Part shown: positions 1,892-17,583 of the stretch, one piece after another
Layout of the letters: each line of letters opens with the position of its first letter
How positions within the stretch are numbered: the stretch's first letter is position 1
DNA from: a virus
Virus record (IMG/VR): IMGVR_UViG_3300042691_004960
Span: 1 to 22,550 of that record
Direction: 5' to 3' (one strand)
DNA length: 22,550 nucleotides
The notes under the pieces: model-generated
What the model saw: the letters and a program-made list of their open reading frames with translations, nothing else
What the model was told of the DNA's origin: nothing
The model's database searches: none
Program-made: the position numbers and the translations under genes

Positions 1892-2283
1892 ACGTTCAGC
1901 TCGCCAATCAGCGTCACAGTTACCGTTGCAATGCCGACTGCATTTTGCGCCCAGTCAATATCCGGCGGCTCGGCATACTCCCACAAGATATTGCTCGGCT
2001 TCCTCAGGTCTGTACGCAGTGGTGTGTCTACACCAGCAAACACCTCAGCTGGTAACGTGAACCGCTCAAATCCACCTTCAACACGCCCATAATGGTTCGT
2101 GATTTGACGCACATCACCTTGTCGCCGGTTGGCAAATGTCAATGACAGCTCATACCCATACGCCTTGTTGCCATAACTACGCTTCACCGTAGTTCCCGCC
2201 ATACTCCGGTACGTCTTGACTGGATACCGGCCCAGACGCATCCGCCGACCGGATGGCTTTACCTGAGGGAACTCGATTGACAT
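1888..2283 (-). CDS. Distal tail protein (gpM-like)
   Basis: A 131-residue protein whose ATG shares a base with the tape measure stop (TGATG). An AGGGA ribosome binding site lies seven bases upstream inside the tape measure gene. The sequence opens with MSIEFPQVKPSGRRMRLGRYP and continues with alternating hydrophobic strands ending VTVTLIGELNV, as expected for a small beta-sandwich tail protein. Length and location directly downstream of the tape measure match lambda gpM, part of the conical tail-tip initiator. No enzymatic motif is visible. Confidence 0.7.
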   Translation of the reverse strand: MSIEFPQVKPSGRRMRLGRYPVKTYRSMAGTTVKRSYGNKAYGYELSLTFANRRQGDVRQITNHYGRVEGGFERFTLPAEVFAGVDTPLRTDLRKPSNILWEYAEPPDIDWAQNAVGIATVTVTLIGELNV

Positions 2284-5200
2284 CAGCGGATCCCTACCCT
2301 GCTACGTGTGCTCGGGCTCTGCTGCAGTCTGTCCAGCGTCATGCTCATCCCACGCTTGGCGCCATCGCTTGCGGCGAGCTTCCTGGTTTCGCGGGCCGAT
2401 GCCTGCAGCTGTTCAACAGTGACATACTCGACTTTGTTGATCGGGTCGTAACCAGTCTCAAAGCTCATATTCAACACCGGTGATCCGTTGCCAGCTGGTG
2501 ATGCACCCATCAATTCACGCATCCGATCGCGGCCTACATCGTCACGCATCTGCATCGCAACAGGAATCCTGCGACCATCCGGCAGCGGTACATACGCTTC
2601 ATTCATCATCCCCTCGCCAAACACTGCCACCTGGGGAGAATTGGCAACACCTCCACGGGAATACGTCCGCAACGGCATCGGGCCACGCGATGACATAACG
2701 CCGCCGTTTGCAAACCCCGTAAACCCTGGCGTGAAACTCAGCCCCGTAGACAAGCCTCCAGCGCCAAATGGCCCAGCTGCGCTGGGATTGAATGCCATCC
2801 CGGGCGCCGATGGAAAGGCAAACATCTTGGCAATACCAATCGCGATATATTGCGCAATCATCGTCTTGGCCGTCTGTATCAGCGCATCAGCCATTCCCTT
2901 AAGGAAGTCGGCAAATACTTCCTTGGCAGACCTGGCACCTGTCACCATGTCAGCAAAGCCCCTACTGGCCAGCTCTGCCGCCTGATCCGCTGCAGCACCC
3001 ACCATCGGATACTTTTGCAGCAACGCATCCAAATCTGCCTTCTGCTGCTCCAGCGGGTTATACGCTGATGGTGACATTACATCCAACGTAAGCGCCTGCA
3101 TCATCCGCACACGTTCGGCGATCAGATCATTGATCTCCTGTTCTTCTCGTTTCTGCAGAACCAGCAGGGCGCGATTCTTTTCGGTTTCAATTCGAGCCTT
3201 TTCTTTGTCGATGTTTTGATTAATCCCTAGCTGTTTCAGTTCTTCCTGTATCGCCAGCAGGTCAGTCTCCTGTTGCTTTGCCTTGTCGATAATCTCATTA
3301 CGCTCAAACGCATATTCCAGCCGCTGACGATCAATCTCTGTCGTAGCACCCGACAACTCGATTTCTTTTTCCAGCTCCGTGATGCTCTTGGTTCGTGCTT
3401 CGACGAACTCTTCTAGGCGTTTGTTGGCTTCGGCTTGTTTCTGTTGCAGATCCTCGGCAGCCTTCGCCTCGGCCTGAAGCGTGGATGCAAAATCATCTAG
3501 GCCCGCACCAGGGCCAGTGCCGGCGATCTCACTGAACACCCGTCGAGCATTTGCCTTGCGCTCTGGTAGCGCCTTGATGCCGCTCCGTTCGTAATCTCGA
3601 TCAAACACCACCGCCGCTTCCTCCGGCGTGGTAGCGCGCCGCAGCGACGCCAGCGCCCGCGACTCAGGGCCCAGCAGCTCGCTCACCATGAACCGCAGCT
3701 GGGTCTGCAGGTTGCCAGCCGCAGCGGGGCCGCCAGCGAACCGCACTAGGTCGGTTTGCCTGCTACCGGTCCACTGAGCCAGGCCATAGCCGCCCACTCC
3801 ACGGGGTAGCCCGACTGCGCCACCTTCGTTGATTCGAGGATTGAGGCCTGATTCTCGAATCAGGTTGCCCACGATCCCGGCAGCCTGCGCTGGCGTCAGG
3901 TTCAGGGCCGACTGCAGCGACTTGGCAATCTGCGCGCCGATGGATTCAGCGGCTCTCTCGGTGGCCGCCCGCCCTGCCGATCCGCCAGCACCTGCCCCAC
4001 CACCACCAGCAGCGCCGGGTAGTGCGGGTGCGGGTGGAGCACCGGGGAGGGTGCCGGGAGCCTGAGGCACGAATGGCGCAGCACCAGCCACAGGCCGGCC
4101 CGTCGCCGTGTCGTAGGTGATCCCGCCCACGGTGTAGGTGTTCGGCACGCCTGCCGCCTGCAGCCGCTGCTGACCCGTCTGCATTGCGCTGACAGCTGCA
4201 TCCCCCACATTGATTCCCGCCGAGGCCAGGATTGCCATGAACGGGTTGGAGTAGTTGATCATGTTGGAGATGGTCTGCTGCCATCTCGACTGCACGAAAT
4301 CAAACGCCGCAGAGAACACGTTGCCGATCGTGGTAGAGACGCTCTGCATCGCGCCTGCCAGCCACTGGCCGTCAACGCCGATGGCGCGCAGGGCCTCGCC
4401 AGCGCGATCGCGCGCCCAGCCAAACATCGTTGCGAAGCTGTTGGCGATGTTCTGCACACCCTTGGCCAGGAATTGACCCATCGCCGTAGCCGCATCGGTG
4501 ATGCGCTTGAACGATGCCTGCGCGTCAGCGGCGATTGATCCCCAGAACAGCTTGAACCGCTCGGGGTAGGTGTTGACAAACTCCCTGAACGGCTCGATGA
4601 ACTTGTAGGCCGCTGCCGTGGCCGCGATGATACCGGCTGCGGCCAGTACCCAGGGATTGGCCAGCACGGCGAGGTTCAGGCCGGTCTGCGCTGCAGTGGC
4701 GGCGCCTGTTGACGCGGCATAGGCCTGCATGGCCTTCGTTGCAGCGCTGATCCCGCCAATGGCGCTCATCGCCGTGGTCAGGCCGAGAACGGCAACACCG
4801 GCAACGGCCGCGGCGGCTCCAACCTGCTTGATCGGCTCTGGCAGTTTGCTGGTCTGCTCCAGTATTCCGGTTGCCGCCTTAGTGAGCGCGATGGTAATTG
4901 GCAGCAGCGATTGCCCGAACTGAATTTGCAGCTCCTGCCCCGCAATCTGCAGGTTGCGGAACTGCTGCGCCGGGCCTTTCATCGCCTCAGCCAGCTTGGG
5001 GGCGCCGTCGCGCTCGATCCGCCCGAGAGCAGTCAGCACGATGTCGCCGGTGATCCTGCCCTCTTTCGCAAGCTCGCGGATCTGGCCGATCGGCACGCCC
5101 ATCACCTCGGCGATGCCCTGCACCACCGCCGGGGTCTGCTCAAATACGCTGTTCAGTTCTTCGCCGCGCAGGACGCCGGTGCCGAGCGCCTGGCTCAGCT

Positions 5201-5888
5201 GCAGAAACGCCGCGCTGGCCTCAGCCGACGTGGTGCCGCTCAGCTTCGCTGCCGTGTTGAATCCGTTGTAGACCGTGCTGATCTCCTCCAGCGTTAGCCC
5301 AACCGGCCGCAGCCTGGCGTAAATCTGGGCGAACTCTTGATTGGTCTGCGTCTGCGCAGTGCCGAACCTCTGCGCGGCTGCAGTAGCAGTGGCCTGTACC
5401 CGGCTGTAATCGTCGAGCCCCTGTGACAGCGACCTCAACCGCCGCTCTGACTCCTCACTCGCCACCACGGCGCTGAGTGATCCGCCGATGGCCCTGCCGG
5501 CGCCGATGGTGGCCAGGCTGCCGGCGAGGCCCGCTGCCAGCCTGCGGCCCAGCGAATCACCCGCCGCTGCCGCCGTCCCATCCAGCCCCCGCAGCTTCCC
5601 TTCCAGCTTCTGGATCTCCGCCCCGTACCGCTGAAACTCGCGGCTGCCGATCTTGGCCTGTTCTTGCAGGCCGCGGAATGCGCCGATGCTGCTGCGGATG
5701 CCGGCGATCGTGTTGTCATTGGCGCGGGCGAACTGGAACGTCGCGGCCCGCAGGGTGCTGATCTCGCGTGCTGTGGTCTGACTGTTCTTGCCCAGATCCT
5801 GCAGCGACTTCTTCACCCGGTCGATATTCCCGCCGCCTTTCACCTCGGCCGACAGCCGGATGGCGGTATCCAAGCTCATCCGGCTCAT
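2283..5888 (-). CDS. Tail tape measure protein with internal lysozyme domain
   Basis: A 1201-residue protein, the longest in the window, as usual for the ruler that sets tail length and travels into the cell with the DNA. Domain order: basic coiled N-terminus (1-125); tape-measure N-terminal region with the LRGEELNSVFEQTPAV motif at about 240-255; hydrophobic Ala/Gly/Val helices at about 330-440; a Pro/Gly/Ala linker at about 605-645; a phage tail lysozyme-like domain at about 646-790 with NLIRESGLNP (probable catalytic Glu) and YGLAQWTG; a charged coiled coil at about 795-935; and a C-terminal segment with FANGGV and GEGMMNEAYVPLPDGRRI, typical of lambda-family tape measures. Its ATG overlaps the gpT stop (ATGA). 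The lysozyme domain probably opens peptidoglycan locally at infection. Confidence 0.95.
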   Translation of the reverse strand: MSRMSLDTAIRLSAEVKGGGNIDRVKKSLQDLGKNSQTTAREISTLRAATFQFARANDNTIAGIRSSIGAFRGLQEQAKIGSREFQRYGAEIQKLEGKLRGLDGTAAAAGDSLGRRLAAGLAGSLATIGAGRAIGGSLSAVVASEESERRLRSLSQGLDDYSRVQATATAAAQRFGTAQTQTNQEFAQIYARLRPVGLTLEEISTVYNGFNTAAKLSGTTSAEASAAFLQLSQALGTGVLRGEELNSVFEQTPAVVQGIAEVMGVPIGQIRELAKEGRITGDIVLTALGRIERDGAPKLAEAMKGPAQQFRNLQIAGQELQIQFGQSLLPITIALTKAATGILEQTSKLPEPIKQVGAAAAVAGVAVLGLTTAMSAIGGISAATKAMQAYAASTGAATAAQTGLNLAVLANPWVLAAAGIIAATAAAYKFIEPFREFVNTYPERFKLFWGSIAADAQASFKRITDAATAMGQFLAKGVQNIANSFATMFGWARDRAGEALRAIGVDGQWLAGAMQSVSTTIGNVFSAAFDFVQSRWQQTISNMINYSNPFMAILASAGINVGDAAVSAMQTGQQRLQAAGVPNTYTVGGITYDTATGRPVAGAAPFVPQAPGTLPGAPPAPALPGAAGGGGAGAGGSAGRAATERAAESIGAQIAKSLQSALNLTPAQAAGIVGNLIRESGLNPRINEGGAVGLPRGVGGYGLAQWTGSRQTDLVRFAGGPAAAGNLQTQLRFMVSELLGPESRALASLRRATTPEEAAVVFDRDYERSGIKALPERKANARRVFSEIAGTGPGAGLDDFASTLQAEAKAAEDLQQKQAEANKRLEEFVEARTKSITELEKEIELSGATTEIDRQRLEYAFERNEIIDKAKQQETDLLAIQEELKQLGINQNIDKEKARIETEKNRALLVLQKREEQEINDLIAERVRMMQALTLDVMSPSAYNPLEQQKADLDALLQKYPMVGAAADQAAELASRGFADMVTGARSAKEVFADFLKGMADALIQTAKTMIAQYIAIGIAKMFAFPSAPGMAFNPSAAGPFGAGGLSTGLSFTPGFTGFANGGVMSSRGPMPLRTYSRGGVANSPQVAVFGEGMMNEAYVPLPDGRRIPVAMQMRDDVGRDRMRELMGASPAGNGSPVLNMSFETGYDPINKVEYVTVEQLQASARETRKLAASDGAKRGMSMTLDRLQQSPSTRSRVGIR

Positions 5889-6319
5889 GTCGCCCCGCTC
5901 GCCCTGGCCTGCTTCAGTCTAAAAGCCGCCAAATACTCCCTTTCCATCAACCGTAAATCCTCCAATATCCACACCCGATCGCCGCGCTTCACTTCCTCGT
6001 CTTTAGCCATCATTATGAATACGCCATAATCCAACCCGTACGGGCCATTCATCCCTACACGCCACTGCGTTTGCAGACGCATAAACCATCCCAATGCCTC
6101 TGCATTCGTCGCCAACACGCCAAACGTTTTCGGCATATCATCTACTGGCGCCGGGGCACTGCCGAAAAACACCTCTCGCGCTTCGGCAGCATCATCGCCC
6201 TCCCCCTCATCATCTGCGGCGCCGGCCAGATACCGCGCCGCATCAATCAGTTTTTTGCCCGCAGCCCTCCAGCCTTCGCTGCACTCTTCTCGCTCGGCTT
6301 CCCTAAACTCTCGCGCCAC
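5885..6319 (-). CDS. Tail assembly chaperone, gpT-like part (DUF1799 family), made by -1 frameshift from gpG
   Basis: The frame is open from a GTG at 6319 (144 residues), but there is no convincing ribosome binding site before that GTG. The useful part begins after the slippery site at about 6250 (KKLIDAARYL onward). The C-terminal half carries the DUF1799 signature: WFMRLQTQWRVG, then GPYGLDYGVF, then EDLRLMEREYL. In lambda the G-T fusion, produced by ribosomal -1 slippage, binds both tape measure and tail tube protein and loads the tube around the ruler. The adjacent A AAA AAC site and stem show the same arrangement, so this reading frame is probably never translated alone. Confidence 0.88.
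   Translation of the reverse strand: MAREFREAEREECSEGWRAAGKKLIDAARYLAGAADDEGEGDDAAEAREVFFGSAPAPVDDMPKTFGVLATNAEALGWFMRLQTQWRVGMNGPYGLDYGVFIMMAKDEEVKRGDRVWILEDLRLMEREYLAAFRLKQARASGAT
6216..6256 (-). promoter_or_regulatory. Programmed -1 frameshift signal: slippery heptamer plus stem-loop
   Basis: Read on the minus strand, the heptamer A AAA AAC spans 6256-6250 in the gpG frame and is followed at once by the gpG stop TGA (6249-6247). After an 8-base spacer, GCGGCGC (6241-6235) pairs perfectly with GCGCCGC (6222-6216) around a 12-base loop, which can form two further GG:CC pairs. Slippage of both tRNAs by one base turns AAA AAC into AAA AAA and reads CTG ATT GAT onward, which is exactly the gpT frame. 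Heptamer, spacer length, GC-rich stem and gene context all fit known -1 sites. Confidence 0.92.
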
Positions 6320-6708
6320 GCTTGATAAATCGCCTGCGCGGCACCCTGCACCCGATACATCTTCGACTTGCTCGCATCACTGAACTCCACCGGCTCGCCA
6401 TCCTGGCCCACTACCTCATCACCCCAGCCGCACAGCACCTCATCCGCCAGATCCTCATACGTGCACGGCAGCGGCTCGGCAAACGCTGGCTTCTCTGGAT
6501 CATCCTTGCTGAACCCCTGCAGCAGCTCCAGCCGGTGACGAATTGCCAGCACCATCTGCGCTTCCTGCGCCTGCAGTGCATCACAATCCTCTTCGTCCAG
6601 CACCCGGAAATGTGCCGTGAACCGATACGGTTTTTTCACGCCACCCTTGGCCGGTAAATCAACACTCACCGGCCACTCAATAAACTCAGGCTGATACAGA
6701 TGGAACAT
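6247..6708 (-). CDS. Tail assembly chaperone, gpG-like part
   Basis: A 153-residue protein located between tail tube and tape measure, the fixed position of gpG. It is acidic in the middle (CDALQAQEAQ, KDDPEKPAFAEPLPC) and ends with a lysine/alanine-rich tail, GGLRAKN. Its last two sense codons, AAA AAC, are the slippery site, and the TGA stop follows directly. Ribosomes that slip back one base continue into the gpT frame. The free gpG and the fused gpGT are needed in a set ratio for tail assembly in lambda. The start ATG at 6708 has no obvious ribosome binding site, and a 74-base AT-richer gap separates it from the tail tube gene. Confidence 0.85.
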   Translation of the reverse strand: MFHLYQPEFIEWPVSVDLPAKGGVKKPYRFTAHFRVLDEEDCDALQAQEAQMVLAIRHRLELLQGFSKDDPEKPAFAEPLPCTYEDLADEVLCGWGDEVVGQDGEPVEFSDASKSKMYRVQGAAQAIYQAWRESLGKPSEKSAAKAGGLRAKN

Positions 6709-8634: not shown

Positions 8635-9561
8635 TTGACTGTGATCGGCATTAAAGGCGACAGCTTCACCTGGGACGGCCGGCCGGTGCGCCTGGCAGGA
8701 TCACACACTTGGAACACGGTCCAGCGCATTGCGGGCGAACGGATCAGCCTGCAGCAGCTGGCGTTGCCTGAGCCATCCAAAAGCGTCAGGCCCTTTACCC
8801 GGCTATGGACGATCGAGACAAAGGGATTCGTCGGTGAAAACAGCCTGTGGGGCAGCAACACGCCGGGGCTGATCAAGATCCAGGATGGGCCATATCGCAA
8901 CGACGGCAGCCTGAACCGCAAGTATTACCGGGCGCTGGAGCGCACCGTCAAGAGGGCTGAGCGCCGGGACATCGTGACCGGCGTGGTGCTGTTCGAGGGC
9001 AGCATCCCCGACATCTTCCCGCGTGCATGGGAGCAGCACCCGTTCAATGGCCTAGGTCCCGCCAGCCACGATCAGGTTCATACGCAAGGGCCATGGAACA
9101 AACTCCAGCAGCGGCACATCACCCGCACGGTGCGGACGCTTGAGCCCTACGACAACGTGATTTATGAGGTTGGCAACGAACTCATGGCCACCAGCACGGG
9201 GTGGTTCCAGCGGTGGGTTGTTGGACTGGTCAAGAAGCTCACCAACAAACCCGTAGGCGTTTCCTATGCCCGTGGCATCAGGCCCAGCAAGGGCAAGCAA
9301 GAGACGTGGATGGTCGCCTCCGGTGCCGACTGGATTGCACCACAGGGCAGCAGCATCGCCCAGATTGGTGGTGTGCCTGGGTTCCGTGGCCCGCAGGTGC
9401 TGGACACTGATCATGCTTGGCCGTTGGTGCCGAATCTTGCCGGGATGAAGTCAGCCTGGCAGCGTGGATTTGACGTGCTGCTGATGGATGGGATGAACGG
9501 CACCATGCTTAGGAATCAGGGCAGCATGGCCGCTGATCGAGCGTGGGTTGCGGATCTGTAG
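8635..9561 (+). CDS. Glycoside hydrolase-like protein (clan GH-A type), accessory gene on the opposite strand
   Basis: A 308-residue protein starting at TTG 8635 with AAAGG six bases upstream. An ATG at 8630 is out of frame and closes after two codons. The N-terminus (GRPVRLAGSHTWNTVQ) and the motif NVIYEVGNEL, with E182 as the likely acid/base residue, are those of TIM-barrel cellulase-like hydrolases. LDTDHAW at about 256-262 is another conserved-looking acidic motif, although a clear nucleophile Glu is not obvious. No signal peptide or membrane segment is visible, so it would act in the virion, or outside only after lysis. It lies antisense within the late operon, 33 bases from the tail terminator start and 9 bases from the next minus-strand stop. 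A role in degrading capsule or matrix polysaccharide is inference. Confidence 0.85.
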   Translation: MTVIGIKGDSFTWDGRPVRLAGSHTWNTVQRIAGERISLQQLALPEPSKSVRPFTRLWTIETKGFVGENSLWGSNTPGLIKIQDGPYRNDGSLNRKYYRALERTVKRAERRDIVTGVVLFEGSIPDIFPRAWEQHPFNGLGPASHDQVHTQGPWNKLQQRHITRTVRTLEPYDNVIYEVGNELMATSTGWFQRWVVGLVKKLTNKPVGVSYARGIRPSKGKQETWMVASGADWIAPQGSSIAQIGGVPGFRGPQVLDTDHAWPLVPNLAGMKSAWQRGFDVLLMDGMNGTMLRNQGSMAADRAWVADL

Positions 9562-11091: not shown

Positions 11092-11712
11092 TCATGGCTC
11101 AACCACCACCCACCGCAGGGATTCCCTGGGCGGGGTCTGTGGGTCATCGGGGAGGAACTGCCCATCCTCCCCAGCGGCCTGGGCTACCCGGTAGAGGGTG
11201 CCGGTGGGGGAGGTCCATTCCTGGCCGAGGTTCTGGGCCGGAGGCGGCACCGTCAGCGCCTCGGTGAAAGCGGCTGGCAGATCAAACCCCTGCGCCATGC
11301 TCAGCACCCCAGCCAGCAGCTGATCAGAGATCAGGCCCAGCCCACGGGCCATCGACCAGGAGTCGAGAAACACCCGAGCATCCCCATCGGCAGCCTTGCC
11401 GAGGCCCACACCCAACCCAAGGCCTAGGGCCGGAAGCTGCTGCAGGGCCGTTCCTAGGAGTTGATTGATCGCCTCGGAGGCCTGCACTGCGGAGCCAAAC
11501 TGCACCCACTGAGCATCGGACTGACCATTGATTCCCCAAAATGCTTCGGCTATCTGGCGACTGTCAAACCAGTACCAATCATCTACTGGGTAGATGTAAT
11601 CAGCGTGGTTTGCGGCGGTTAGCGTAAATCCTGGCGCGTAAACGCTGGTGCCTGCATACTGGAGCAGGTCATCGGTGAACTTGTAGAAACCGGGGTAGGA
11701 CATGGCGATCAT
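11092..11712 (-). CDS. Fibre-cassette partner protein with C-terminal domain shared with the 10194-10448 frame
   Basis: A 206-residue protein. ATG 11712 overlaps the stop of the BspA-like fibre (TAATG) and is the best start; ATG 11703 is also possible. N-terminal part: PGFYKFTDDLLQYA, then an aromatic stretch (DDWYWFDSRQIAEAFWG). Middle: Ala/Gly/Leu-rich helix (GLGLGVGLGKAADG) followed by SMARGLGLISDQLLAGVLS. The last 42 residues form a separate small domain (WTSPTGTLYRV, DGQFLPDDPQTP, ESLRWVVVEP). Being translationally coupled to the fibre gene, it may be a fibre chaperone, adaptor or accessory subunit. I do not recognise a named family. Confidence 0.78.
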   Translation of the reverse strand: MIAMSYPGFYKFTDDLLQYAGTSVYAPGFTLTAANHADYIYPVDDWYWFDSRQIAEAFWGINGQSDAQWVQFGSAVQASEAINQLLGTALQQLPALGLGLGVGLGKAADGDARVFLDSWSMARGLGLISDQLLAGVLSMAQGFDLPAAFTEALTVPPPAQNLGQEWTSPTGTLYRVAQAAGEDGQFLPDDPQTPPRESLRWVVVEP

Positions 11713-13352
11713 TAGGCGGTAACGGTCCACCCTTTGGCGGTGGCAATGGTGGGGTCGTAGCCTGCTCCATTGATGCCGTAGTTGCCGGTTACAGTGATTG
11801 TTTGGCCGGTAACAACAGGCAGGCCGGTGAATAGTTCGTTCAGTGCGGCGGCTGATAACTTGCAGCTGGCTACAGAGAATGAGAAGCGCATTCCTGTAAG
11901 CTGGGCACGGGCGAGGGATGAGCAGTTGGCGACAAAGTTTGCGGCATTTGCTGCTGAGGAAATGCCGCTCATGTCAAGCGGCGGGATGCTTTCCAGGGAG
12001 GTGCAGCCTTGGAACATGCTGCTCATGTTCGTAACTGCTGCAACACTGCCTGGAAATACAGGGATTGTTTGCAGACTGCTGCAGCTTTGGAACATGCTGC
12101 TCATGTTCGTAACTGCTGCAACACTGCCTGGAAATGCAGGGATTGTTTGCAGACTGCTGCAGTTTTGGAACATGCTGCTCATGTTCGTAACTGCTGCAAC
12201 ACTGCCTGGAAATACAGGGATTGTTTGCAGACTGAAGCAGCCTTGGAACATGCCGCCCATGTTCGTAACTGCTGCAACACTGCCTGGAAATACAGGGATT
12301 GTTTGCAGACTGCTGCAGCTTTGGAACATGGTAGCCATGTTCGTAACTGCTGCAACACTTCCTGGAAATGCAAGGATTGCTTGCAGACTGCTGCAGCCGC
12401 TGAACATGCTGCTCATGTTCGTAACTGCTGCAACACTGCCTGGAAATACAGGGATTGTTTGCAGACTGGGGCAGCCGCTGAACATGCTGCTCATGTTCGT
12501 AACTGCTGTGGCATTAGGCAGTGACGGCAGCGATTGCAATGAGCGGCAGCCCTGAAACAGGGTTGATGCCATACTCGTCAACGCACCAACCGATACAATG
12601 TTGATCCGCTCTACATTTGCGTGAACAACAGTCGTCGAACCCCCAATCGTTAATCCCGTGCCACTGACCTGCGGCAATGCCATCGCAATATCCAGCCATC
12701 CTGTCGCATAACCATTCACCAACCCCGTCTGTCCATGCTTCTGAAAGAAGTTGGCAACTGTTAGGTTCTGTCCTGCCTGTGGTGTAATCGTCACTACCGC
12801 CACCTTATACGGCAGCAACGTGGCCGAACCGTCACCCGTAAACGTTACCGGACTGCCGCCAGCAGTCAGCGAAACTTGGAACGTATTTGCTGCTGCATTA
12901 ACAACAAAATACCGCTGCTTCGCAACAATTCCCGTTGTGGTAACAATGCTGTAGAACCGTACAATCGCGCCATTGCTCAGCCCATGAGCCGTGCGGTTGA
13001 CAGTGCTAGTTGCAGCCGTAAACGTAACCGGCGCATTCGTTCCAGCCAGCGCAGCAGAGTTAAAGTCAAACTCATAATCTGCTCTGGCATTGCTTGCATA
13101 GTTCGTCGTCGTCCCATCGCCATAATTGATGATGTAGGCGCCTTGGGCTAAGAATGCGAAAAAGTTGCCACCCTTGCCAACACCATCGCCAGGCCACACC
13201 GCATAGAGGCCAACGATCTTCTGCTCTGCCGCGCCAGGTGCGGTCAACGCTGGCCACGCCGCATTTCGCACCCACTCGTCAGCCGCTGCACCACCCGCAC
13301 CGCCTGCTACCAGCGTGCTGCCCAGATAGATTTTCCCAGTAGTCGTAGGCAT
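11712..13352 (-). CDS. BspA-like leucine-rich-repeat tail fibre (DUF285 repeats)
   Basis: A 546-residue protein encoded between a fibre gene and its partner. Residues 1-60: short N-terminal segment (GKIYLGSTLVAGG) that probably attaches to the particle. Residues about 70-195: a PKD-like domain (INYGDGTTTNYASN, VAVVTIT) interrupted at about 107-181 by an inserted module (TAHGLSNGAIVRF, RYFVVNAAANTFQVSL) known from many phage structural proteins. Residues about 260-460: 26-residue repeats with consensus NMSSMFQ-C-SLQTIPVFPG and SVAAVT, the DUF285 subclass of LRR found in BspA surface proteins. C-terminus: a terminal cap ending NYGINGAGYD and AKGWTVTA. BspA-like proteins bind host surfaces, so this is a good candidate for receptor recognition. 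Confidence 0.85.
   Translation of the reverse strand: MPTTTGKIYLGSTLVAGGAGGAAADEWVRNAAWPALTAPGAAEQKIVGLYAVWPGDGVGKGGNFFAFLAQGAYIINYGDGTTTNYASNARADYEFDFNSAALAGTNAPVTFTAATSTVNRTAHGLSNGAIVRFYSIVTTTGIVAKQRYFVVNAAANTFQVSLTAGGSPVTFTGDGSATLLPYKVAVVTITPQAGQNLTVANFFQKHGQTGLVNGYATGWLDIAMALPQVSGTGLTIGGSTTVVHANVERINIVSVGALTSMASTLFQGCRSLQSLPSLPNATAVTNMSSMFSGCPSLQTIPVFPGSVAAVTNMSSMFSGCSSLQAILAFPGSVAAVTNMATMFQSCSSLQTIPVFPGSVAAVTNMGGMFQGCFSLQTIPVFPGSVAAVTNMSSMFQNCSSLQTIPAFPGSVAAVTNMSSMFQSCSSLQTIPVFPGSVAAVTNMSSMFQGCTSLESIPPLDMSGISSAANAANFVANCSSLARAQLTGMRFSFSVASCKLSAAALNELFTGLPVVTGQTITVTGNYGINGAGYDPTIATAKGWTVTA
12011..12556 (-). repeat. Seven 78-base tandem repeats inside the BspA-like fibre gene
   Basis: Units begin at about 12011, 12089, 12167, 12245, 12323, 12401 and 12479. 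The first six are nearly identical at DNA level, sharing blocks such as GTTCGTAACTGCTGCAACAC and GGATTGTTTGCAGACT. The seventh is degenerate. Each unit encodes one 26-residue repeat. Differences cluster at the residues before and after the conserved Cys (for example SC, GC, NC) and the N-M-S-S / N-M-A-T / N-M-G-G positions. High nucleotide identity suggests recent expansion and a capacity to gain or lose units by recombination. Confidence 0.93.
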
Positions 13353-13354
13353 AC

Positions 13355-14506
13355 TCAGCTCGTAATAACGTACAGGGTTGATGCGCTTGGTGATGCAATC
13401 GCGTCGTACTCGGCCTGGGTCAGGCTGACAATGTTGGTCACTGCATCGGCGCCTGTGATTCCTGTGACATCGCTCACCACGGCAATGTCGATCTTTTGCT
13501 TGTCGGTGGCGCTGGCCAGACCCGCTGTAGTGCTGTTGACTAGGGGGAGCACCGCGTCATCCCCAGTCGAGCTGCGCACTTCGCGGCTGGCGGCGTCGTA
13601 GGTGAGGTTGGTGGCGACGTTCACTTGAGCGCCAGAGGCAACCCCGTCGAGCTTTGTCTTGTCCGCCCCACTCATCAGGCCGGCCAACGTCGTGCTCGCC
13701 TCAGGCAACGTCACGTCAGCGCCTGTAGAGCTGCCCAGCAGCCGACTGCTCGCCGTGTAACTCAGATCGGTCGGGCCGGGAATCGAGGGCAGTCCCGACA
13801 AACTGCCATATGCGATCTGCGCACCATCGCCGCCGTTGTGATCATGGCTGTTGCCATTGGTCACACCCTGCGCTGCTGGAGCAAAGTCTGTCGTTGCTGC
13901 AGCAGCGGCTGTCCCCAAGGTGGGCTTGTTCAGGATCTGGGCGTCACCACTGGAGGCGTTCCAGTCGGCGTTGACGTTTACCTCGGCGCCGGCCTGGATA
14001 CCATCGAGCTTGGTCTTGTCGGCGCCGCTCATCGAACCGGCGGCGCTGGTGGTCGCAGCGGTGATGCTGATCGCCGGGGTATTGCCACCAGAACTGACAA
14101 TCGGTGCAGTCCCAGACACTGAGCTGACACCACCTGACGGCAACCCCGTTAACTGCGACGCATCCACCGCCGGAAGCCTGCCAGCATTATCGAGCTGCAC
14201 CACATTCCCGGCTGCCGTGCCGACGTTCTGTGCCGCAGCACTACCGAGCGTTGGCCGGTTGCTCAGATCGCCATACGCTCCAGTCGTTGCAACCGTCGCC
14301 AAAGTCGACTCCAACGCATACTGCCCATGCGGATCCGCAGCAGCAACGTGTGCATTAACCGCCGCCGTAATCGATCCACCACATAAATCCGCAATCGCCT
14401 GCGTTGACGCATCTACCGTCGTCCCACCCTGATCCATAGGCACCCTCTCAGTGCCACTCAATGGCACCGTCGCATTAGGCAAACCCGTGATCGTTACGTC
14501 AGCCAT
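13355..14506 (-). CDS. Modular tail fibre protein
   Basis: A 383-residue, Ala/Gly/Ser/Thr-rich protein. N-terminus ITGLPNATVPLSGTERVPMD followed by TTVDASTQAIADL is a common phage fibre attachment segment. Then fibre-type modules appear in series: PHGQYALES, YGDLSNRPTLG, LDNAGRLPAVDASQLTGLP, twice SGADKTKLDG with a following V-N-V, DAQILNKPTLG, and HDHNGGDGAQI. The C-terminus, SLTQAEYDAIAS then STLYVITS, is a recurrent end of trimeric phage fibres. Likely an extended trimeric shaft, placed beside the BspA-like fibre, possibly connecting it to the particle. Start ATG shares a base with the stop of the head-tail joining gene (TGATG). Confidence 0.85.
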   Translation of the reverse strand: MADVTITGLPNATVPLSGTERVPMDQGGTTVDASTQAIADLCGGSITAAVNAHVAAADPHGQYALESTLATVATTGAYGDLSNRPTLGSAAAQNVGTAAGNVVQLDNAGRLPAVDASQLTGLPSGGVSSVSGTAPIVSSGGNTPAISITAATTSAAGSMSGADKTKLDGIQAGAEVNVNADWNASSGDAQILNKPTLGTAAAAATTDFAPAAQGVTNGNSHDHNGGDGAQIAYGSLSGLPSIPGPTDLSYTASSRLLGSSTGADVTLPEASTTLAGLMSGADKTKLDGVASGAQVNVATNLTYDAASREVRSSTGDDAVLPLVNSTTAGLASATDKQKIDIAVVSDVTGITGADAVTNIVSLTQAEYDAIASPSASTLYVITS

Positions 14507-15507: not shown

Positions 15508-17583
15508 TCAGATACCCCACACAAAGGCCTCGGGATAGCGAACCCCAAAGTCGCAATCCTGCAGGATGCTGATCTCAACGCTGCCGGAATCCTGATACTT
15601 ATAGGGATTCACGCCGATGTCTTGGCCGCTCCAGAACGCCAGCAGCACCTGCGAGAAGTCGCCGAAGAGGCTATTATTCACCTCCAGCTGGTTTGACATC
15701 AGGGCCGGGTAGCCGTTGATCTCGTTGTTGCGCAGAACGTAGAAGTCGCTCTGAGCGTTCTCCAGCGTGGTCTTGTAGACGCCCCTTGCATGGGCGTTCA
15801 TCATGTACGCCATGCTGGGCACATCCAGGTTCGCCAGGCTCACCTTCGTTTCCATCTCAACCAGGTTGAGGAAGGTGCCAAAGTTATAGCTTACGCTGTT
15901 GATGGTCTTCGCCTGGCCGCCGGACAGCGTTTCAGTCTTCACCCCATCGGTGTACCGCAGGCCCAGGGGGCGCTTGGATCCGCCTGGGGAGTACAGGAAG
16001 TCCTTGTCAATACCAAGGGCGACCTTGCGGCTCAGGTGGCTGCGAACCCAGGCTTCGGAGGAGAATCCGGTCTGGCCGATGAAACGGCGCGTCAGGACAG
16101 TTTTCGCACCGACAGTCTTGGGCGTGAGGCTGACCTGGCCAACCAGGATCTCAGAGGCGTCAGGCGCCTGGCCCTCACCAACCCAGTAGTGAGTAGGGCC
16201 GGCGGTTTCCTTGGGGATGTCGATGTCACCCACCAGACCGCTCAGCACGGTGGCGCCGGCAGCGGTGATGCTCAGGCGGTTGTAGATCAGCTCAATCATC
16301 GAGCCAATCAGCAGGTCGGTGTCAATCAGCGCACCGCCGGTGGTGAATCCACCTGCGGTCTGATCAGCGCGGATGTTCTTACGACCGGCGCCCATGCCGG
16401 GGATCTGCGCGACCATCACGTCGGCGGGGATGCGGAACGAGCCCTGCAGCTCGCGGCCCGAATGCTTCACCGCAGCGGCGGACGCTTCCAGCTCCAGTCC
16501 GGCAGCATCACGCAGACGGGCATCGGTCGGGTCAGAAAAGTGCCGAATCGCATTCAGGATGTTGTACCGCTTCACCTCGCGGTCAGACATGCCGATCAGG
16601 CCATCAGCGCTCGACTGCATGCGACCGCTCATCTCGACCCTCTTGGCACCCTTGGCTTGCATCGCCAGCTCAAACAGCTCGGCGCGAACGCAGTCCACGC
16701 TGGCGCCAGACTCGATGTATTCATCGGCCTTTTCGTTGCCTGCGCCGGCCTTCTCGCACATATTCCGAATGGTCTTCGAGCGCTCGCGCTCAGCCTGCAC
16801 AGCGGTCATCTCCCGCTCTGCAACGTCAATGGTCTGGGTTGTCATAGCAGGAGATGCGGTTTGCATTTCTCCATTCAGGCTATGCACCTCCTCATTCTCT
16901 TCCTTCGCCACCTGATCATCCACGGGCGGTTCAGTTACCGCATCAACCAAAGCAGCAGTCTTGGCAACTGGCTTCCGTGGCTCGACAAACTCCACCAGTT
17001 TGGCCAATGCCTGCGGCATCTTGGCGAATCGACCCAAGGGCACAGCAGCTGCCTTCACATCGCGAGCCGGTGCCATCTCCGATGCAAACCCAAACTCAAC
17101 AGCCTCGGCAGCAGTAAGCCAGCTCTCGGCGGCCATCAGAGAACGCACGTCATCCTCGCTCAGTCCAGAGCGATCAACGTACGCTTGCCGATACGCAGTC
17201 GAAATCCGATCGATTAGATCAGCTTCCTTCCTGAGGTCATTGGCGCCACCAATGCCGAGCCCCCATACCTCATGGATCATAAGGAAGCTGCTCTCTGGCA
17301 TGACGATCTCATCGCCAGCCATCGCAATCAACGATGCAGCACTGGCAGCCACGCCGTCAATAATCACGCGCTTCCGTCCTGCGTACCGGGACAGCATCGA
17401 ATAGATCGCTAAGCCCTCCAGCGCATCGCCGCCATAGCTGAACAGATTGATCGTCAGCGGCTCATCGCGACCCGTCAACGCGCTCTGCACCTCTCGGGCT
17501 GTAATCTCCCAGCCCACCTCGCCAATCAAAGCCATTTCAAGCCCTGAGTTGTCGGCGGCGGCCTTAATTGCTACGCCAGTCAT
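15508..17583 (-). CDS. ClpP-like prohead protease / major capsid protein fusion
   Basis: A 691-residue polyprotein. Residues 1-175: ClpP-type serine protease with GVAASAAS (nucleophile S81), MIHEVWG (H104) and ESWLTAAEAVEFG (E153 in the acidic position, as usual for phage ClpP). Residues about 180-390: charged helical segment (NEEVHSLNGEM, EREMTAVQAERERSK) suited to scaffolding and later removal. Residues about 390-691: HK97-fold capsid protein (GGFTTGGALIDTD, HYWVGEGQAPD, FWSGQDIGVNPY, FGVRYPEAF). In related phages the protease cuts itself and the scaffold away to leave mature capsid. The ATG at 17583 has only an AGG nearby, enclosed in a hairpin. Confidence 0.93.
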   Translation of the reverse strand: MTGVAIKAAADNSGLEMALIGEVGWEITAREVQSALTGRDEPLTINLFSYGGDALEGLAIYSMLSRYAGRKRVIIDGVAASAASLIAMAGDEIVMPESSFLMIHEVWGLGIGGANDLRKEADLIDRISTAYRQAYVDRSGLSEDDVRSLMAAESWLTAAEAVEFGFASEMAPARDVKAAAVPLGRFAKMPQALAKLVEFVEPRKPVAKTAALVDAVTEPPVDDQVAKEENEEVHSLNGEMQTASPAMTTQTIDVAEREMTAVQAERERSKTIRNMCEKAGAGNEKADEYIESGASVDCVRAELFELAMQAKGAKRVEMSGRMQSSADGLIGMSDREVKRYNILNAIRHFSDPTDARLRDAAGLELEASAAAVKHSGRELQGSFRIPADVMVAQIPGMGAGRKNIRADQTAGGFTTGGALIDTDLLIGSMIELIYNRLSITAAGATVLSGLVGDIDIPKETAGPTHYWVGEGQAPDASEILVGQVSLTPKTVGAKTVLTRRFIGQTGFSSEAWVRSHLSRKVALGIDKDFLYSPGGSKRPLGLRYTDGVKTETLSGGQAKTINSVSYNFGTFLNLVEMETKVSLANLDVPSMAYMMNAHARGVYKTTLENAQSDFYVLRNNEINGYPALMSNQLEVNNSLFGDFSQVLLAFWSGQDIGVNPYKYQDSGSVEISILQDCDFGVRYPEAFVWGI

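Follow-up and report, generated by a model that had tools for sequence, protein, structure and literature searches.

A probable lambda-type -1 frameshift with a putative Shine-Dalgarno-like 5' stimulator in the gpG/DUF1799 tail chaperone gene of a cyanosiphovirus-like phage

Phage lambda G/GT and its counterparts in long-tailed dsDNA phages (PMC5009743) are located before the tape measure gene and pair a short chaperone with a -1 fusion, the slippery heptamer lying near the end of the first ORF. The haloarchaeal virus HCTV-2 is described as using A_AAA_AAC for the g-t frameshift (PMC5009743). In another kind of cassette, that of Escherichia coli dnaX, a Shine-Dalgarno (SD)-like element ~10 nt upstream, an A-rich heptamer ending in G and a downstream hairpin are combined in a shift that ends the protein. 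Chaperones with a DUF1799 T domain in a -1 relation to gpG are found in the Serratia phage Scapp, the Hafnia phage Pocis76, the T1-like phage Shfl1 and the Synechococcus phages S-LBS1, S-CBS1 and S-CBS3. Since Scapp and Pocis76 were deposited with a frameshift join, annotators were already aware of frameshifting into DUF1799. The entries for S-LBS1, S-CBS1, S-CBS3 and Shfl1 carry no such annotation, and the paper on S-LBS1 is silent about a frameshift.

The locus described here lies on the minus strand of a 22.5-kb virus record (IMG/VR IMGVR_UViG_3300042691_004960, positions 1 to 22,550; this whole stretch is referred to as the window). Its genes run from terminase, portal and protease-capsid through the tail terminator and a probable major tail protein to gpG/T and the tape measure. 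The large terminase (TerL) is 61% identical to that of the freshwater Synechococcus phage S-LBS1 and distant matches to gpG occur in S-CBS1 and S-CBS3, on which grounds the virus is likely a siphovirus-like phage related to Synechococcus cyanosiphoviruses, with a picocyanobacterial host. Two scans of genome contigs for gpG relatives returned none, and thus no host genome or prophage was found, while a scan for close relatives with the T part returned near-identical contigs only. Several other features of the window were observed. A single ORF of 691 aa (15508-17583, minus strand; Pfam CLP_protease and Phage_capsid) joins a ClpP-like prohead protease to an HK97-type major capsid protein. A 546-aa protein with DUF285/BspA-type leucine-rich repeats in near-identical tandem units (11712-13352, minus strand) adjoins tail-fibre-like genes and is perhaps a host-attachment or repeat-variable protein. 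A 308-aa ORF (8635-9561, plus strand) runs opposite to the structural module that surrounds it and has no Pfam or PHROG match.

Between the probable major tail protein and the tape measure lie two overlapping ORFs, the second in the -1 frame. The first encodes a gpG-like tail assembly chaperone of 153 aa (6247..6708, minus strand), which matches the tail family phrog_569 (E = 4.8e-9) and has homologues at more than 80 viral loci. Its neighbour on one side, ORF 7964-6783 (393 aa), is without a family match and was assigned as the major tail protein by position; on the other side, directly after gpG/T, the tape measure (5888-2283) matches TMP_3. The tape measure also contains an internal phage tail lysozyme domain (2283-5888, minus strand; Phage_lysozyme2, E = 4.4e-30). 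The T part (5885..6256, minus strand) comprises 123 codons and a stop counted from the heptamer, and matches both PF08809 (DUF1799; E = 1.9e-10, 41.3 bits, above the Pfam gathering cut-off of 26) and the PHROG tail family phrog_680 (E = 3.5e-19). The -1 frame is open to 5885 and reads ...GGLRA-KKLIDAARYLAG... across the junction, and the predicted gpG-T fusion reads ...GGLRAKKLIDAARY....

The minus strand at the junction reads GGCT GGAGG GCTGCGGGC AAAAAAC TGA TTGA TGCGGCGC GGTATCTGGCCG GCGCCGCA. The heptamer A AAA AAC occupies 6250..6256 and the gpG stop TGA, the codon right after it, 6247..6249, both on the minus strand; as gpG ends in GCA AAA AAC TGA, the heptamer is in the correct phase for -1 slippage. 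It is the sole in-phase canonical X XXY YYZ heptamer (Y = A or T) within gpG, a second AAAAAAC, at 6636, being out of phase. A preliminary description of this DNA had placed the heptamer exactly in the gpG frame with the stop as the next codon and slippage leading into the DUF1799/gpT frame, and the first two points hold, while the last is strongly supported by comparison across relatives. Two further statements did not stand. The immediate stop is not a needed part of the site, since many close relatives read AAC TCA TAG; the gpG stop in relatives is TGA, TAA, or TAG one codon later. The ranking of the lambda site as weaker is unsupported, as G_GGA_AAG is listed among the highly shift-prone sites in E. 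coli, where A_AAA_AAC shifts much less readily than A_AAA_AAG (PMC5009743).

The close family consists of 31 non-redundant members, one of which (L002) has exactly the window's sequence at the site; protein identity between the relatives and the window is 61-75%. Alignment of the gpG/gpT overlaps, as the preliminary description had proposed, revealed the heptamer in all 31. Elsewhere in the same genes Lys is encoded by AAG in 85% and AAA in 15% of cases, Ala by GCA in 9% and Asn by AAC in 44%, and the codons between the conserved elements vary freely, as for the Arg at alignment column 154 (CGC, CGG, CGA, AGA). In a synonymous resampling with the protein fixed and codons drawn according to family usage, a terminal A AAA AAC arose from the window sequence in 0.6% of cases and any in-phase canonical heptamer within the last 21 codons in 5%. 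Such rarity in one sequence is, taken alone, only suggestive; chance is ruled out because the heptamer is conserved throughout the family.

If T were made separately from an internal start, the heptamer would be incidental. In favour of this, separate downstream ORFs are called in the annotations of S-CBS1, S-CBS3 and S-LBS1, and the window frame does contain start-like codons, namely GTG 6319 and, further down, GTG 6172 and ATG 6136. Their predicted SD pairing is weak, however, at -2.9, -0.7 and -1.7 kcal/mol, respectively. Of the 31 members, 28 have no ATG, GTG or TTG in the -1 frame from the last stop to the heptamer, and the window, with its GTG at 6319, is among the three that do; the earlier view that this GTG does not start gpT is borne out. 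Downstream of the heptamer, only one start-like codon recurs (ATG or GTG, where the window has GTG 6172), and five relatives have GTA or ATA there instead. The last -1-frame stop upstream lies 11 codons before the heptamer in most relatives and one codon before it in three (L094, L096 and L097), in which the gpG stop follows directly 3', so that a change of frame is possible only at the heptamer. Moreover, the stretch from the heptamer to the possible starts is itself conserved as -1-frame protein: differences at codon positions 3:2:1 number 693:245:175 over the -1 frame after the heptamer and 255:132:61 over its first 15 codons, and this third-position excess indicates protein selection on this stretch in a frame without a start of its own. 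Since internal starts also leave the fixed heptamer unexplained, independent translation of T is very improbable. In one relative (L045, from 1385 onward) the T part is cut after ...DYGVFI and runs into an unrelated stretch, and the resulting 309-aa frame appears to be a product of recombination or chimeric assembly.

An SD-like GGAGG, which the preliminary description missed, is located at 6266..6270 (minus strand), 9 nt 5' of the heptamer, and its predicted duplex with the anti-SD sequence amounts to -9.8 kcal/mol. SD-like stimulators of -1 shifts act at 9-14 nt (PMC5009743), a range into which this spacing falls. GGAGG is present in 30 of the 31 close-family members, the exception (L100) retaining the G-U-capable GGGGG. 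Because Gly-Gly is invariant in the close family, the GG.GG pattern is fixed by the protein, and SD-like elements are not general among DUF1799 phages (of 84 junctions in which the stop adjoins the heptamer, only 2 attain an SD duplex of -7 kcal/mol) and are hence not required; the motif might thus be a chance or protein-level feature, with heptamer and hairpin alone mattering. Codon choice makes this unlikely: the first Gly is encoded by GGA in 30/31 members vs 5% of the Gly codons elsewhere in gpG, while the following Gly codon varies freely in its third base, which lies outside GGAGG (GGG 15, GGC 10, GGA 6). Together with the spacing and the G-U-capable exception, this pattern looks like that of a lineage-specific, dnaX-type 5' element, which may stimulate the shift.

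The 3' side of the site is occupied by a predicted stimulatory hairpin (6215..6242, minus strand). The previously noted 7-bp perfect stem behind an 8-nt spacer is exact, and with an added basal U-A pair it becomes an 8-bp stem with a 7-nt spacer (arms 6242-6235 and 6222-6215), continued by inner pairs of 6234-6232 with 6226-6224 beside a bulged G at 6223. The predicted fold thus has 11 bp and one bulge, with a dG of -20.2 kcal/mol in 45 nt and z = -2.4; an Rfam search of the window returned no match. Within the close family every outer pair is kept, with 100% of cells paired. As to the covariation of the stem, for which the preliminary description had suggested a check, changes on both sides were indeed found at two pairs (C-G/U-G/U-A at the base and G-C/G-U/A-U in the inner stem of one clade), but few pairs vary and the shuffle control was only mildly exceeded (15/500 and 38/500), a weak test, given arms that show almost no variation and double as coding sequence in the -1 frame. 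Stronger support comes from distant relatives, in which hairpins built from different sequences are predicted at this position, with arms GCGCCGC/GCGGCGC in S-CBS1 and GCGCCGT/ACGGCGC in S-CBS3 and a 13-pair stem (z = -5.3) in S-LBS1.

DUF1799 matches 750 phage records, and two scans with DUF1799 alignments yielded 85 other unique junctions. In 81 of them an in-phase A_AAA_AAC or G_GGA_AAC was found in the -1 arrangement, abutting the gpG stop in 75: AAAAAAC stands right before the stop in 60 and somewhat upstream in 6, GGGAAAC right before the stop in 15, and 4 are in other arrangements. These four were first read as '+1'; on re-reading, L237 and L293 proved to have the usual heptamer and stop, leaving L241 and L258. 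Downstream RNA at the surveyed junctions is more stable than shuffled sequence (mean z -2.25). Where GGA AAC takes the place of AAA AAC, a gpG residue is altered but the slippery pattern persists, which speaks for slippage being under selection. Homologues with a broken heptamer and an intact gpT frame, named earlier as evidence that would speak against the frameshift, do occur in the distant Webervirus (L138 and L139; A_AAA_GUU) and Scapp (L141; A_AAG), yet they do not refute it, because a simpler lysine-tRNA slip site occupies that position and T stays in the -1 frame relative to gpG; their sequences suggest single-tRNA -1 slippage, in which one lysine tRNA would re-pair.

RNA polymerase stuttering on the A-run, giving frame-shifted mRNAs that are then translated normally, is a further conceivable route into T, and a run of six A's is indeed found at the site in all relatives, or seven in L100 and L107. 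Bacterial examples of transcriptional slippage involve runs of about nine A or T (PMC5009743), however, and the run here stays at six A's and a C without lengthening. Neither the GGGAAAC junctions, 15 of the 85, which lack a long run, nor a hairpin and an SD element placed as for a ribosome are explained by this route, which is scarcely credible. One relative (L095, around 1674) has five A's only at the slip site, a one-base loss that would leave T accessible only by a +1 or -2 shift; the most likely cause is a base deleted in sequencing or assembly.

In S-LBS1 (L134), the annotation names the gpG at 13023-13403 an ABC-transporter ATPase component (FepC) and covers only the end of T, at 13601-13744. 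By the present analysis the two would form one frameshifted chaperone gene, with the predicted junction peptide ...AKAKKLTAAVEHLF....

Programmed -1 ribosomal frameshifting of the lambda G/GT type, fusing gpG to the DUF1799/T frame, is the reading preferred for the window, with a probability of about 94%. The majority of ribosomes would end gpG at the TGA, and a minority would stall on A AAA AAC, detained by the hairpin in front and, in the close family, additionally by pairing of GGAGG with the 16S anti-Shine-Dalgarno sequence behind. The Lys-tRNA and Asn-tRNA would then slip one base back and translation would enter the DUF1799 frame to give the gpG-T fusion, at an efficiency that may differ from that in lambda. 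On the lambda model, the two products would together cover the tape measure protein and bring in the tail tube subunit at a fixed ratio of gpG to fusion.

Compared with the described systems, the locus is a well-supported member of the lambda G/GT type and otherwise ordinary, the lineage-specific putative 5' stimulator being its sole uncommon trait. It shares with lambda the position before the tape measure, the short chaperone with a -1 fusion and the heptamer near the end of the first ORF, and differs in using A_AAA_AAC rather than G_GGA_AAG, in the stop directly after it, in the strong hairpin, in the SD-like element of the lineage and in a T part that is DUF1799. With HCTV-2 it shares, by the review's description, the heptamer for the same gene pair, in contrast to which the host there is archaeal. 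The close family carries a predicted dnaX-like three-part cassette, mostly lacking in its relatives; the window heptamer ends in C instead of G, the shift extends the protein instead of ending it, and the gene is unrelated to dnaX. Besides the T domain and the -1 relation, Pocis76, Shfl1, S-LBS1, S-CBS1 and S-CBS3 also share the heptamer and the adjoining stop, whereas all the named DUF1799 phages lack a strong SD element and have another hairpin sequence, and Scapp and Webervirus have shorter slip sites.

A broader reading, to which about even odds may be given, is that a very widespread tail chaperone has DUF1799 as its T domain and is made by near-universal -1 slippage at X_XXA_AAC abutting the gpG stop, and that the lineage of the window gained a strong SD-like 5' stimulator, perhaps tuning the gpG:gpG-T ratio or offsetting a weak A_AAA_AAC site in a cyanobacterial host. 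If this is true, one phage family would provide a natural series for the gain of a dnaX-type stimulator, and related phages with and without the 5' SD element would be material for its share in tail-chaperone stoichiometry. The Pfam 'domain of unknown function' DUF1799 would receive a function-level reading as the frameshift-fused T domain of a tail chaperone, and the annotation of the isolated cyanophages S-LBS1, S-CBS1 and S-CBS3, in which the fusion is missing, would be corrected.
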